From Halovenus carboxidivorans (GTDB taxonomy: Archaea > Halobacteriota > Halobacteria > Halobacteriales > Haloarculaceae): a stretch of 64,000 nt of DNA. Below the pieces are notes generated by a model. The model was given only the letters and a program-made list of their open reading frames with translations, was not told the DNA's origin and made no database searches. Each line of letters starts with the position of its first letter. Within the stretch, counting starts at the first letter, position 1. The DNA lies in contig NZ_WUUT01000001.1 of assembly GCF_009831575.1 (NCBI RefSeq), forward strand, positions 124,001 to 188,000, read 5' to 3'. Positions 11,119 through 43,266 of this stretch are shown here, piece by piece. A program made the position numbers and the translations under genes.

Positions 11119-11182
11119 CGCCGGTGGATAGCTTCGAACTACGACGGGACCCCGCCGTCTCGACCCTGGGGTGGTGACTGCT

Positions 11183-12433
11183 ATGCGCCGGAGTGAACTC
11201 ACACTGTTTACGAGCCGCGAGCCGGGAAGCCAACAGAACGAGACGGTCAGACTCGCGCTGCGCGCGGGGCTGATCCGGCAGTTCGGGAGCGGCCTGTACG
11301 CCTTCGCGCCGATCGGACAGCGCATCCGCGCCAGCATCATCGATCACGTCGACCGCGAGATGCGCGCCATCGGCGCCCGCGAGGTCTCACTCCCACAACT
11401 GAACTACAGCGGCATGTGGGAAGAGAGCGGTCGGTGGGGTGATTTCGGCGGCGAGATGTTCACCTTCGAGAACCGCGACGGCAAGCGCATGTGTCTCGCT
11501 CCCTCCCACGAAGAAGGGATCGTCCGCCTGCTCTCCGGCACGATCCGCTCCTACGAGGACCTCCCGGGGCTGTACTACCAGATCAGCAGAAATCACCGCG
11601 ACGATCACCCCCGGAGCGGACTCCTTCGCACGAAGGAATTTACGATGAAGGACGCCTACAGCGTCCACGCAACGGCTGAATCTCTCGACGAGCAGTACGA
11701 GCGCGTCCGGGAGGCGTACGTTCGTATCTTCGAGGACTTGGACATCGAGTTCGTGATCGCGGACGCGGAGAACAACCTCATGGGCGGCTCTGCCTCCGAG
11801 GAGTTTCTGGCGGTCGCGGAGACCGGCACCGCGGACCTGTGGTACTGCCCCGAGGACGACTGCCGGTTCGGGGCGACGGGTGAGTCCCCGCAGTCGGACC
11901 TGTCTGCCGGCGACGACTGCCCGGACTGCGGCGGGAGTCTCGCCGCGGGCGAGGGCGTCGAAATCGGCCACATCTTCAAACTCGGGACGCGGTACTCCGA
12001 GCCGATGGGGCTGACCGTCGACCTCGACGACGGCAGCCGGCAGGACGTTCTGATGGCGAGTTACGGCATCGGAATCGAGCGGCTCCTGTACTCGCTGATC
12101 GAGCAACACGCCGACGAGGACGGCTGTCGGTGGTCGGCCGACGGCTCCGGCATCGTCGCCCCCTACGCCGCCTCGATCATTCCGCTGCAGTACGACGACG
12201 AACTCGCGGCGGTCGCGGACTACCTCTACGAGGACTGCGGCCCCGACCAGACGCTCCTGTTCGACGACCCCGACCAGTCCATCGGCGAGCGTTTTGCGGA
12301 GAGTGATCTGCTGGGCGTCCCCTACAAGATCATCGTCGGCAACGAGTTCCGCGAGACGGGCGAGGTCGAACTGGAGAGCCGCGACGGCGAGACGGAGTAT
12401 CTGACCATCGAGGAAGTCCCCGAACGGATCTGA
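11183..12433 (+). CDS. Bacterial-type prolyl-tRNA synthetase homologue without INS editing domain
   Basis: Class II aminoacyl-tRNA synthetase core, 416 residues. It begins RSELTLFTSREPG and continues RAGLIRQFGSGLYAFAP as bacterial ProRS does. Motif 2 is NHRDDHPRSGLLRTKEF (138-153) and motif 3 is ASYGIGIERLL (292-302); a C-terminal anticodon-binding-like part follows. Between GGSASEEF (201-208) and EIGHIFKLGTRYSEP (260-274) bacterial ProRS carries an editing domain of about 180 residues. Here there are about 50 residues with C222, C227, C246 and C249, a likely zinc ribbon. Haloarchaea normally charge tRNA-Pro with an archaeal-type ProRS, so this may be a second synthetase or a paralogue with another job. 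The ATG is preferred over GTG codons at 11171 and 11174. Confidence 0.8.
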   Translation: MRRSELTLFTSREPGSQQNETVRLALRAGLIRQFGSGLYAFAPIGQRIRASIIDHVDREMRAIGAREVSLPQLNYSGMWEESGRWGDFGGEMFTFENRDGKRMCLAPSHEEGIVRLLSGTIRSYEDLPGLYYQISRNHRDDHPRSGLLRTKEFTMKDAYSVHATAESLDEQYERVREAYVRIFEDLDIEFVIADAENNLMGGSASEEFLAVAETGTADLWYCPEDDCRFGATGESPQSDLSAGDDCPDCGGSLAAGEGVEIGHIFKLGTRYSEPMGLTVDLDDGSRQDVLMASYGIGIERLLYSLIEQHADEDGCRWSADGSGIVAPYAASIIPLQYDDELAAVADYLYEDCGPDQTLLFDDPDQSIGERFAESDLLGVPYKIIVGNEFRETGEVELESRDGETEYLTIEEVPERI

Positions 12434-12475
12434 CCGTCTGCGTTTACGCCGTATCTCTTTGTATACGCGGCCGAA

Positions 12476-13603
12476 TCAGAGCCGATCAGTGACCGCCTCG
12501 GCGTCGTAGTTCAGGCTCAGCTCCCGCGAGCGGCCCCGGCCCTCGACCTCGGTGTAGCTGGCGTCGATGATCCCGAGTTGGTCGAGTTTGTTGATGATCT
12601 CGGAGTAGCGGGTGTAGCCCAGGCCGGTCTCGTCGTTGAAGATGTCGTAGATTTCGCCGGCCTGCTTCCCGTCGTTCTCGGCGATCACCTTCACGAGGGC
12701 CGTCTCGGAGTCCGACAGTTCCCGGAGCCGCCGGGAGAGATGGACGTACTTCGAGGTCTCGTAGGCCTCCTCGACGTCCTGGAGTTCGACGTGGCGGCTG
12801 GCCCGCATCTCGGCTTTCAGCCCGGCGCGTCGCAGCAGATCAATCCCGACGCGGAGGTCACCACCCTGCTCGGCGGTCAGTTCGGCGACCCGGTCGAGCA
12901 CCGAGGTCGTGATCACGTCGTCGTGAAAGCCGCGTTTGGCTCGCTCGCGGAGGATCTCGACGATTTCGGCCTCGCCGTACTTCGGGAAGTACACGTCCTC
13001 GGGTCGGAAGACGCTCTGGACGCGGCCGTCGAGTTCCTCCAGGATGTCCAGATCGAGATCCGAGGAGATGAGGATCACGCCGATTTTCGCGCCGCCCTGT
13101 TCCTCGTGGGCGCGCAGAAGCGAGTACAGCGTGTCCGAGGCTTCGGACTCGTAAAACAGGTAGTTCACGTCGTCGAGCGCGACGACGAGCACCTCGTCGT
13201 CGTCGACGAGCTTGTCGGTCACCTGCGAGAACAACTTCTTGAAGGAGATGCCCGAGGAGGGCGGCTCGTACTCGAAGACGCCCTCGAACAGCTGCGAGAA
13301 GATGGCGTAGCGGGTGGAGTTGACCTGGCAGTTGACCCGGATCGTCTTCACGTCGGTCTGAGCGCGCAGTTCGTCGAAGATGATCTGGACGGAGGTCGTC
13401 TTTCCCGTCCCGGGCGGCCCCTGTGCCATCACGTTCAGCGGTCGCGAGCCCCGAACGGCCGGCTTGAGCGCGTACTTCAGGCTCTCCATCTGGCTCTCCC
13501 GGTGGAGGAAATTCTCGGGCACGTAATCGATCTCGAAGACGTGTTCGTTGCGAAAGACGGACTCGTCCCAGGACAACATCTCCTCGTCGGAATCGTCCGT
13601 CAT
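12476..13603 (-). CDS. Orc1/Cdc6-type replication initiator
   Basis: AAA+ ATPase with a C-terminal winged helix, 375 residues. Walker A is GPPGTGKTT. Walker B is ALDDVNYLF, where the usual Asp-Glu-x-Asp is Asp-Asp-Val-Asn. ISSDLDLDILEELDGRVQSVFRPEDVYFPKY holds sensor 1 and the initiator-specific part, and the winged helix covers about residues 295-375. The start at 13603 (MTDDSDEEML) gives the usual length; the in-frame upstream extension is basic and atypical. No cluster of origin-recognition boxes flanks it, so it may not mark an origin. Confidence 0.92.
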   Translation of the reverse strand: MTDDSDEEMLSWDESVFRNEHVFEIDYVPENFLHRESQMESLKYALKPAVRGSRPLNVMAQGPPGTGKTTSVQIIFDELRAQTDVKTIRVNCQVNSTRYAIFSQLFEGVFEYEPPSSGISFKKLFSQVTDKLVDDDEVLVVALDDVNYLFYESEASDTLYSLLRAHEEQGGAKIGVILISSDLDLDILEELDGRVQSVFRPEDVYFPKYGEAEIVEILRERAKRGFHDDVITTSVLDRVAELTAEQGGDLRVGIDLLRRAGLKAEMRASRHVELQDVEEAYETSKYVHLSRRLRELSDSETALVKVIAENDGKQAGEIYDIFNDETGLGYTRYSEIINKLDQLGIIDASYTEVEGRGRSRELSLNYDAEAVTDRL

Positions 13604-39538: not shown

Positions 39539-40324
39539 GTGTCGATCCCACTGACGCCGACGGTCGTGACGCTGGTCGTGGTCGTCTTCCTGCTCGCGGG
39601 CGCGATCAACGGTCTCGCGGGCTTCGGATTCGCTCTCGTCGGGACGATGGCCCTCGCCGTCTCGATCGATCCGGCCGTCGCGGTCGTCTTTGTCGTCGTC
39701 CCGATACTCGCTGTAAACCTCTCGCTGGTCGGGGAGCTGTCTGGCTCTGACCTCCGAACCTGCGGGCGGCGTTTCGCCCCGCTGCTGGCGGCGGCGCTGG
39801 TCGGCACCGTCCTCGGGATGGCCGTCATCGACCGCCTCCCCGCCGCCCCGCTTCGGGTCGGACTGGGTCTCGTGACGCTGGCGTTCGTTCTCAGCCTGCA
39901 GTCGGCCGTGCCGATTCCGGGGCTCGACCGGGCGAAAGAGGGGTGTTTCGCCGAGACCACCCCAGCGATGCTCGGTATCGGTGTCGTCTCGGGGCTACTC
40001 TTCGGTGGGACGAACGTCGGCGTCCAACTCGTCGCCTATCTGCGTAGCTGTGACCTCTCTCACGGCCTGTTCGTCGGCGTCGTGGCGATGGTGTTCGTCG
40101 GACTCAACGCCGTTCGAGTGGCCGCCGCGGGCGTGCTCGGTCTCTACCCCGACCCCGCGACGGTCGGGCTCTCCGTCGCCGCGGCGGTTCCGGCAGTCGT
40201 CGGTGTCGCGGTCGGGAGACGACTCCGAGACGTCATCAGCGAACGGGCGCGAAACGGGGGTGTCATGGCGCTGTTGACCGTGATCGGCCTCCGACTCGTC
40301 GCCGGCGGGTTGGGGCTGTTCTGA
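39539..40324 (+). CDS. TauE/SafE family membrane permease
   Basis: 261 residues, GTG start, about eight hydrophobic helices in two similar halves. GAINGLAGFGFALVGTM and ISGLLFGGTNVGVQLVAYL-like segments (here VVSGLLFGGTNVG) are the two family signature loops. Members export sulfite, sulfonates or similar organic anions; substrate not predictable here. Confidence 0.85.
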   Translation: MSIPLTPTVVTLVVVVFLLAGAINGLAGFGFALVGTMALAVSIDPAVAVVFVVVPILAVNLSLVGELSGSDLRTCGRRFAPLLAAALVGTVLGMAVIDRLPAAPLRVGLGLVTLAFVLSLQSAVPIPGLDRAKEGCFAETTPAMLGIGVVSGLLFGGTNVGVQLVAYLRSCDLSHGLFVGVVAMVFVGLNAVRVAAAGVLGLYPDPATVGLSVAAAVPAVVGVAVGRRLRDVISERARNGGVMALLTVIGLRLVAGGLGLF

Positions 40325-40327
40325 GCC

Positions 40328-41890
40328 CTATTCGCCTATCGTCCCGACGGCGTGTGCGACCGCTCGGGCAGCGGCCTCGACGGTCCGGCCGTCACGGTCC
40401 AGCGGCGGCGCCGCCTCGACGAGTTCGACGCCGGCGATGCGGTCGTCGCTGGTCAGCAGTCGCACGACGCGGAACAGTTCCCGCGTGCTGAGCCCCCCGG
40501 GTGCGGGATCGGACACGCCGGGTGCGGCCGCCGCATCGAGCACCGAGAGGTCGATGCTGACGTACAGGTGATCGACCTCTTCCATCGCTCCGAGCGCGCG
40601 GTCCGTGGCCTCGACCGGATCGTCCGCCACCTCCTCGGCCGTGACGACCGTCCCGTCGTTGTCACGCAGTACGTCCGCCTCCGCGGTCGAACTCTCGAAG
40701 TGTCGCGCACCGAGTACCGCGAGTGCATCCAGTCCGTCGGCAAGCAACTGTCGGTACGCACTCCGGTTCGTCGGCTCGCCGTCGCCTGGCTGGCAGTCCA
40801 GCCGCGCATCGAGGCTGACAACGCCGACGCTTCCACTCTCGCCCGCCCCCGTCTCCTCGGCGGGGCTGGCCGCGCCCCCTTCGATCACCTCCGTCTCCGT
40901 CTCGCTGTCCGGCATCGAGAACGCCGTATCGTCGACTGCCGACCCTCCCTCGGGTTCCTGTTCGTCGTCTCGTTCGTCGACTTCCGTCGTGTCGTCTGTA
41001 ATGTCCCCCTCGTCATCTGTCGCGATGTTCTCCTCGTCATCCGTCGCGATGTCCTCTCCGTCGTCACCCTCTTGGTCGCCTTCGTCGGCTTCATCGCCGT
41101 TGTCGTCTGAGTCCTCTTCGTCGTCACCCTCCCGTTCCTCCTCGTCGCCGCCATCGGCGGGCGCAGCGTCGTCAGTCCCCTCGTCGTCTGCCTCGTCGAC
41201 CGTCCCGGCGGCGTCGCTGTCGTCTGGCTCGGTTTCCTCGTTGCTCACCTCGGGTTCTCCTCGCTCTCCCGTCCCAGTCTCGTCGTCTTCGTCGCCGTCG
41301 GCGGTCGTATCGGCGTCCTCACCCTCTGTACTGTCGTCGCTCTCTCCATCATTCTCCGCCTCTGATTCCTCGGCGTCGCTGTCCTCGTCCGTGGTCGTCG
41401 GATCGAAATGCTCGACGTCCCCGACGGACTCCTCGTCCTCGCCGAATCCCCCGTCGGTCACGTAGCCGCCGTCCGTCGCGGCCGTCGCTTCGAGTAAGCC
41501 GGCGACGTTGGCGTAGGTCAGCGAGCCGTCCCCGCCGAGTACCACCGGCACCGTCTCGGCGTCGTGCAGTTCGTCCATCGTCTCTCGAACCCGTTCGCGG
41601 GCCGTCGAAACGGACGCACCGGGAGGGACCTCGACCGTTCCGACGTCGCCCACCGACTCCACCGGGCCGGCGTCGAGGTGATGGGTCTCGACGGCAGCCA
41701 GCGCCTCGCGGATCGCCGCCGGACCCTCCCGAGCGCCCGGTCGTCCGACGGAGCCGCCGTCGTAGGGCTCTCCGACGAGCACGGCGCTGTACTCACCACT
41801 GTCTTCGACCGTCGTCGACTCGATGATCTCCCCGAACTGCCCGCTCGCGGTTGTCGGCTCCTCCTCGCCCCAGGCTGATGTGCGAACCAT
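40328..41890 (-). CDS. Ureohydrolase (HutG/agmatinase) relative with acidic insert and lost metal ligands
   Basis: 520 residues. The two ends match haloarchaeal formimidoylglutamase: AVLVGEPYDGGSVGRPGAREGPAAIRE and VVLGGDGSLTYANVAGLL at the N-terminal side, VGVVSLDARLDCQ, LGARHFESS, SIDLSVLDAAAAPGVSDPAP and VELVEAAPPLDRDGRT at the C-terminal side. Between them, residues 135-351 are almost only Asp, Glu, Ser, Thr and Gly, with an eight-residue duplication IATDDEEN/IATDDEGD. Of the six expected Mn ligands three are changed: His of GGDHS is G122, His of DAHLD is R363, and the second Asp of SxDxD is S449. An active arginase-fold enzyme is unlikely; binding or regulation is possible, or this is decay. 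No hut genes are adjacent. Confidence 0.75.
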   Translation of the reverse strand: MVRTSAWGEEEPTTASGQFGEIIESTTVEDSGEYSAVLVGEPYDGGSVGRPGAREGPAAIREALAAVETHHLDAGPVESVGDVGTVEVPPGASVSTARERVRETMDELHDAETVPVVLGGDGSLTYANVAGLLEATAATDGGYVTDGGFGEDEESVGDVEHFDPTTTDEDSDAEESEAENDGESDDSTEGEDADTTADGDEDDETGTGERGEPEVSNEETEPDDSDAAGTVDEADDEGTDDAAPADGGDEEEREGDDEEDSDDNGDEADEGDQEGDDGEDIATDDEENIATDDEGDITDDTTEVDERDDEQEPEGGSAVDDTAFSMPDSETETEVIEGGAASPAEETGAGESGSVGVVSLDARLDCQPGDGEPTNRSAYRQLLADGLDALAVLGARHFESSTAEADVLRDNDGTVVTAEEVADDPVEATDRALGAMEEVDHLYVSIDLSVLDAAAAPGVSDPAPGGLSTRELFRVVRLLTSDDRIAGVELVEAAPPLDRDGRTVEAAARAVAHAVGTIGE

Positions 41891-41978
41891 TTACTCGGGT
41901 ACTGCAACCGCCAGCGGCTTGTCTGCATCGGTCCGGAGCCGCCGCTGTGCGGCGCGGATAAAACGAGAAACCGCCGAG

Positions 41979-43193
41979 TTAGGCGAAGGTCCGGGAGACG
42001 TCTTCGGCTTCCTCTTCCTCGGCTTCGATCTTGTCGTACGCTTCCTGGAAGTCCGTCATTCGGACCTCCGTGCGGTCGTCACGGATGGCGAACATCCCCG
42101 CCTCCGTACAGATCGCCTTCACGTCGGCACCGGAGGCGTCGACGGCCATCTCGGCGAGTTCGGCGTAGTCGACGTCGTCGGCGATGTTCATCGAGCGGGT
42201 GTGGATCTTGAAGATCTGCTCGCGACCCGCGGCGTCTGGCTTGGGCACCTCGATGAGGCGGTCGAACCGGCCGGGGCGGAGAATCGCGCGGTCGAGCATG
42301 TCGAAGCGGTTGGTCGCCGCGATGATACGGATGTCACCGCGGTCCTCGAAGCCGTCCATCTCCGAGAGCAGTTGCATCATCGTTCGCTGGACCTCGGCGT
42401 CGCCGGAGGTCTTCGAGTCCGTCCGTTTGGCGGCGATGGCGTCGATCTCGTCGATGAAGATGACCGCGGGCTGGTGCTGGCGGGCGAGTTCGAAGAGGTC
42501 ACGAACCAGTTTCGCGCCCTCTCCGATGAACTTGTGCACCAGCTCCGAGCCGGCCATCTTGATGAAGGTGGCGTCGGTCTGGTTGGCGACGGCCTTGGCG
42601 AGCATCGTCTTTCCGGTGCCCGGCGGACCGTGCAGCAGCACGCCCGACGGCGGGTCGATACCCACGTCGTCGAACATGCCAGGGTTTTTCAGCGGCATCT
42701 CGACGGTCTCGCGGACTTCGTCGATCTGGGCGCTGATACCGCCGATATCCTGGTAGGTCACGTCCGGGCTCTCGTCGACCTGCATCACCCGAGCGCGCAC
42801 GTCGGTCTCGTCGTCCAGCGATTTGACCACCGACAGCGAGTTGTTGACGGCCACCCGCGAGTCCGGCTCCAGATCCTCGCGCATCTCCTCGGTGACCTCG
42901 GTCAGCGCTTCCTGGTTGTTGCCGTGCTGTTTGATGATTACGCCGTCGTCGGTCAGCTCCTGAACCGTCGCGACGAACAGCGGCGACTGTTTGAGCTTCT
43001 TGTTCTCGTGGGTCAGCCGCTCCAGTTTCTGCTGGTACTTGTTGTTCTCCGCGTTGGCGTCGAGCAGTTTGTCCCGCATCTCCTCGTTCTGGGACTCCAG
43101 CACTTCGAGACGCTCCTGTAGCGATTCGATCTTCTCCTGTTTGGACGCGTCTTCGTCGTACGGCAGATCGACGTCGTCCACCATGTCGGTCAT
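41979..43193 (-). CDS. pan: Proteasome-activating nucleotidase PAN
   Basis: AAA+ unfoldase that feeds the archaeal 20S proteasome. 404 residues. N-terminal coiled coil (about 15-65, EKIESLQERLEVLESQNEEM), OB domain (about 70-140), AAA+ core with GPPGTGKTMLAKAVA, IFIDEIDAIAAKR, second-region ATNRFDMLD and RPGRFDR arginine fingers. The C terminus is SRTFA, so the HbYX docking motif (hydrophobic-Tyr-any) is present only with Phe for Tyr. Start at 43193, as M-T-D-M precedes the coiled coil; it is divergent from a small winged-helix gene. Confidence 0.95.
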   Translation of the reverse strand: MTDMVDDVDLPYDEDASKQEKIESLQERLEVLESQNEEMRDKLLDANAENNKYQQKLERLTHENKKLKQSPLFVATVQELTDDGVIIKQHGNNQEALTEVTEEMREDLEPDSRVAVNNSLSVVKSLDDETDVRARVMQVDESPDVTYQDIGGISAQIDEVRETVEMPLKNPGMFDDVGIDPPSGVLLHGPPGTGKTMLAKAVANQTDATFIKMAGSELVHKFIGEGAKLVRDLFELARQHQPAVIFIDEIDAIAAKRTDSKTSGDAEVQRTMMQLLSEMDGFEDRGDIRIIAATNRFDMLDRAILRPGRFDRLIEVPKPDAAGREQIFKIHTRSMNIADDVDYAELAEMAVDASGADVKAICTEAGMFAIRDDRTEVRMTDFQEAYDKIEAEEEEAEDVSRTFA

Positions 43194-43266
43194 TACCATT
43201 AATAAGGGCTCTCGGCAATAAGAGGCTTCGGGTCGGCCCCAAATTCTGAAATCACACTGGGCTGGC

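Follow-up and report, generated by a model that had tools for sequence, protein, structure and literature searches.

A probable pseudoenzyme of formimidoylglutamase ancestry bearing a long acidic insert in Halovenus

What becomes of a ureohydrolase that has lost half of its metal ligands and gained an acidic insert of about 200 residues: is it a working enzyme, a relic, or a protein kept for something else? The question is raised by an open reading frame on the minus strand of a 64,000-nucleotide stretch of Halovenus carboxidivorans DNA (contig NZ_WUUT01000001.1), hereafter the window, whose numbering is used throughout. The frame, at positions 40328-41890, encodes 520 amino acids, as given in the initial annotation, and matches both Pfam Arginase and the hutG model TIGR01227. 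The match to Pfam Arginase (PF00491) reached 161 bits in total, against a cut-off of 22, in two blocks that flank the insert. TIGR01227 was the best NCBIfam model with 217.4 bits, just below the cut-off of 229.15 at which a protein is taken as an equivalog; we refer to the protein as pseudo-HutG. In an AlphaFold model computed with 27 aligned sequences as input, pLDDT was 84-97 across most of the N-terminal half (residues 1-134, 41489-41890, minus strand) and the C-terminal half (residues 353-520, 40331-40834, minus strand), and below 50 across most of the insert. The top structural match of the model was formimidoylglutamase 3m1r of B. subtilis (Z 37.5, rmsd 2.1, 293 residues), and formiminoglutamase of T. 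cruzi (Z 36) and metformin hydrolase chains were also close. Profile and model together place the protein in the ureohydrolase superfamily, and its core is predicted to be a complete ureohydrolase fold, in line with the fold originally proposed.

Whether the altered features recur elsewhere was examined by a search for orthologues. Halovenus sp. LUM.6, a metagenome-assembled genome (MAG) that is 86% complete, encodes a pseudo-HutG (11128-12588 of its locus) with the same insert, the same ligand losses and the same gene order, and 72% identity in the C-terminal half. Since LUM.6 is a separate assembly, this recurrence shows that the insert and the substitutions are not due to chance, and an assembly artefact was rejected on the same ground. 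In a survey of the family, 52 of 146 genomes had a close relative, of which only the H. carboxidivorans and LUM.6 proteins were of the insert-bearing type, as assigned by identity, gene order and inspected sequences. No pseudo-HutG relative was confirmed on viral contigs. The HutGs used for comparison numbered 28, five loci with wrong frames having been left out. In the tree, the two pseudo-HutGs formed a single clade (100/100), which was nested among the Halovenus HutGs (97/94). Their common stem measured 0.45 changes per site and the tips 0.22 and 0.33. Of the named species, Halovenus salina, H. rubra and H. aranensis are the closest relatives. Some other HutG loci have longer open frames (up to 1390 aa), which were considered as insert carriers and rejected as upstream read-through where inspected.

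We then compared the metal-binding motifs. The true HutGs have GGDN, DAHLD (DTHLD in one) and S[VL]DxD, and B. subtilis HutG has GGDN, DAHHD and SVDMD. The corresponding motifs are GGDG, DARLD and SIDLS in the H. carboxidivorans protein, which thereby retains D361, D365 and D447 out of the six ligands of HutG, and GGDS, SARLD and SIDLS in LUM.6, where the additional D361S loss leaves two of the six. The substitutions, which had been noticed from the sequence at the outset, thus fall at ligand positions 1, 3 and 6, and all three positions are also lost in LUM.6. R363 (codon at 40802-40804, minus strand) is Arg in both pseudo-HutGs and His in all 28 HutGs; S449 (40544-40546, minus strand) is encoded by TCG in both, where 28 of 28 HutGs have Asp. 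At position 122 (41525-41527, minus strand) the substitution itself stands, but the ancestral residue was not His: the 28 haloarchaeal HutGs of the comparison all have Asn here, as does B. subtilis HutG, so that the change is from N to G. We take this Asn to match the manganese ligand N114 of T. cruzi formiminoglutamase, which fits the PDB title of an N114H variant. The codon is AAC or AAT in Halovenus HutGs, AGT (Ser) in LUM.6 and GGC in H. carboxidivorans, and a simple route through Ser would connect them.

The losses extend beyond the ligands. Among 87 HutG-invariant columns, defined by at least 96% identity across the 28 HutGs, the H. carboxidivorans protein departs from 18 and the LUM.6 protein from 22, with 17 changed in both; by the same count, a leave-one-out control gave 0-7 losses for true HutGs. 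The common losses include N122, H363, D449, R367, S375, G376, P378, T400, Y404, A461 and T463, and many of them fall in the metal motifs and in loops 367-378, 400-404 and 461-463, which would correspond to the substrate pocket. These changes bear on whether pseudo-HutG could still be an enzyme, with altered chemistry and one metal or none. The conserved core and the three aspartates kept in H. carboxidivorans would allow it, but the LUM.6 orthologue lacks D361 as well and the substrate-loop positions S375, G376, P378 and Y404 are changed in both proteins, which makes such an enzyme very unlikely. From these losses, pseudo-HutG would be expected to have no hydrolase activity. Both proteins are also devoid of lysine, and the HutG-invariant lysine at position 68 is Glu or Asp; haloarchaeal HutGs hold only 1-4 lysines, so this absence may mean little.

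The insert (residues 135-352, 40835-41488, minus strand) comprises 218 residues, close to the roughly 215 first estimated, and is predicted to be disordered. It contains 98 Asp or Glu (45%), three arginines and no lysine, for a net charge of -95, and recurs in LUM.6 with 184 residues. As the initial annotation stated, it splits the fold; however, it does not lie directly after the strand of the first ligand (114-119) but one helix later, between helix 125-137 and strand 355-360, which runs up to the DAHxD motif, in the AlphaFold model. In all 28 true haloarchaeal HutGs the corresponding loop spans just a few residues, and none of them has an acidic insert. Conservation within the insert is uneven. 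At its start, a 27-residue stretch (residues 138-164, 41399-41479, minus strand; ATDGGYVTDGGFGEDEESVGDVEHFDP) is 93% identical between the two proteins, a 17-residue insertion in LUM.6 left aside, with a dN/dS of 0.02 (bootstrap 0-0.10). The acidic low-complexity middle (residues 165-328, 40907-41398, minus strand; 50% Asp plus Glu) is only 41% identical, with length differences and a dN/dS of 0.28, and could be little more than halophile acidic filler. Near the end, TETEVIEG (residues 331-338, 40877-40900, minus strand) is identical in LUM.6.

As for the origin of the insert, the 27-residue stretch at its border had no match beyond the pseudo-HutG pair among 392 genomes sampled from the order, and five Halovenus genomes gave nothing but one weak match (E 0.2); on this ground, borrowing from another protein was rejected. 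Expansion of a tandem repeat was likewise rejected, the repeats being only short and imperfect, 66 bases at most. Opposite the insert lies an antisense open frame of 286 aa (40605-41465, plus strand), a serine-rich mirror of the Asp and Glu codons, and another of 432 aa (41823-43121, plus strand) lies opposite the neighbouring gene for the proteasome-activating ATPase PAN; both are probably artefacts of GC-rich DNA.

We investigated whether selection still maintains the altered protein, using Nei-Gojobori estimates between the two pseudo-HutGs with bootstrap intervals. The core gave a dN/dS of 0.156 (95% bootstrap 0.105-0.214) at a dS of about 1.3, which is near saturation; the N-terminal half gave 0.20 and the C-terminal half 0.13. 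Intact Halovenus HutG pairs gave 0.09-0.15 and eight neighbouring genes 0.03-0.18. Third codon positions differed in 54% of codons, against 12-20% at first and second positions, a pattern unlike that of a neutral relic. These values, well below 1 and similar to those of intact HutGs, indicate that purifying selection acts on the core, and they agree with the earlier description of an intact frame and a conserved remainder, the frame being open in both species. The initial annotation had named intact orthologues together with relaxed selection as the mark of simple decay; the nearest orthologue is instead equally altered.

A functionless relic of a hut operon, decaying slowly, would fit the many lost active-site positions, the long stem branch and the state of the pathway in H. 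carboxidivorans. That genome does not hold the full histidine utilisation pathway expected around a HutG enzyme: no hutU, no hutH, no hutI above the cut-off and no other HutG were found in it, which settles the proposed search for a true hutG elsewhere in this genome. In five other Halovenus genomes, a normal hutG lies within a hutU-hutG-hutI-hutH operon. LUM.6 has the beginning of hutU at a contig end and may for this reason still encode a true hutG. Against the relic stand the frame kept open in both species, the core interval of 0.105-0.214, the near absence of amino acid change in the 27-residue stretch inside the insert and the clustering of the losses around the active site. With the core value so close to that of functional HutGs, simple decay is disfavoured, and we rejected it on the dN/dS together with the loss pattern common to both proteins; a slowly decaying relic appears highly improbable.

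The gene order around pseudo-HutG raises another possibility. The PAN gene (41979-43196, minus strand) lies directly upstream on the same strand with a gap of 88 bases, and in LUM.6 PAN and pseudo-HutG follow each other on the same strand and in the same order with a gap of 62 bases, in an otherwise shared neighbourhood. A protein directly downstream of PAN in both carrier genomes might be co-transcribed with it and act as its adaptor or regulator, with the disordered arm as the region for initiation or docking; an AAA+ unfoldase could plausibly use a long unstructured segment as a handle. In other Halovenus genomes, however, PAN is present and pseudo-HutG is absent, the two carriers share one ancestral neighbourhood and so amount to a single observation, and a T-rich stretch after PAN may terminate its transcript. 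Pseudo-HutG is possibly linked to PAN, the basis being gene order, and a role as PAN adaptor is quite improbable. Within the gap, a stretch at about 41916-41934 (minus strand) is almost identical in LUM.6 (GGACCGATGC-GACAAGCC) and may be an element of a promoter or 5' leader. The neighbours of pseudo-HutG in H. carboxidivorans are PAN, a TauE-like gene and tmk; the TauE/SafE-like membrane protein gene (39539-40324, plus strand) lies between tmk and pseudo-HutG, and LUM.6 has no such gene at that place, tmk and pseudo-HutG nearly touching.

Pseudo-HutG resembles HutG (TIGR01227; 3m1r, 4mxr) in fold, family and ancestry, its C-terminal half being 66-69% identical to Halovenus HutGs. It differs in lacking three metal-ligand positions (four in LUM.6) and several substrate-loop positions, in carrying the acidic insert, in standing outside any hut operon and in scoring below the TIGR01227 cut-off. 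A functional parallel is MetCb of metformin hydrolase, a metal-free arginase-family pseudoenzyme subunit that sets a precedent for a ureohydrolase retained as a binder; its authors list further metal-free arginase relatives with roles not known (PMC11271267). Both MetCb and pseudo-HutG are arginase-family proteins without the binuclear metal site, and binding, for which MetCb is kept, would be the role of pseudo-HutG. One could suppose that pseudo-HutG stabilises or activates another cellular ureohydrolase in the same manner as MetCb does MetCa. MetCb binds an active partner (PMC11271267), the close structural matches include metformin hydrolase chains, and two further Arginase-family proteins are encoded in the H. 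carboxidivorans genome. These lie on other contigs (C2 and C4), however, whereas MetCa and MetCb are named in one gene cluster; no active ureohydrolase is encoded beside pseudo-HutG, and a MetCb-like role is less likely for that reason. Many relatives have similar paralogues and no pseudo-HutG, and the long acidic arm, which is not known for MetCb, would be left unexplained. We therefore regard such a subunit as unlikely.

Taken together, the evidence favours a metal-free pseudoenzyme that arose from a HutG ancestor within the genus Halovenus and is probably kept for binding. The pseudoenzyme originally proposed gains support from the catalytic residues lost in both orthologues, the purifying selection on the remaining protein and a genome with no true hutG; the case for retention rests on two orthologues, one of them from the incomplete MAG. 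A hutG copy would have moved to the position behind PAN, after which the binuclear manganese site and the substrate pocket would have been dismantled while the ureohydrolase fold was kept. A disordered polyanionic arm of roughly 200 residues would have been gained in the loop ahead of the DAHxD strand. Arg363 may sit in the emptied site and substitute for the charge of the metal. Like its relatives, the protein is probably a trimer or hexamer and would then display several arms. Its function would be the binding of a partner through the 27-residue stretch and the polyanion rather than hydrolysis, and cations or basic proteins are possible ligands of the arm. More tentatively, and with considerable doubt, pseudo-HutG may be a dedicated binding hub, in which an oligomeric metal-free core carries several 200-residue arms, each with a 27-residue stretch for partner recognition, possibly linked to PAN.

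Metal-free ureohydrolases are a small and poorly understood group, and MetCb is one of the few whose role is known. The eukaryotic metal-free arginase-like protein of 2015, as it is cited in PMC11271267, is similar in that the ureohydrolase fold outlives the metal cluster, and differs in being eukaryotic and arginase-like where pseudo-HutG is HutG-like. Metal-free ureohydrolase pseudoenzymes are already known, and what is new is a Halovenus-specific pseudo-formimidoylglutamase bearing a long acidic arm. We know of no polyanionic insert in the eukaryotic protein. Pseudo-HutG offers a clean and recent archaeal case, with intact enzymes in sister species, two apparently dead copies on which selection acts, one of the two genomes without the pathway, and an acidic disordered arm that arose at a single defined loop. 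An enzyme that would have become a binding protein can here be compared before and after the change, and the short conserved stretch of pseudo-HutG can be used directly as bait.

Other irregularities of the histidine pathway were seen in the genus and beyond it. A Halovenus genome that is 88% complete (G016; C114, locus L082:16-4654) has an operon with hutU, hutI and hutH and without hutG, in which hutI begins where hutU ends; the rest of that genome yielded no HutG either. In LUM.6, a HutH-like protein (L081:1308-2906, minus strand, contig C156), encoded divergently to the truncated hutU start, is 40% identical to true HutH; its MIO-forming region reads SQGSGD in place of GSLGASGD, and QDPLS stands where QDAYS is conserved. 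A relative from another genus (G049, L167), 80% identical, has SEGSAD and a TAG within the aligned stretch. From these changes, the LUM.6 protein is possibly a second altered or dead enzyme of the histidine pathway.
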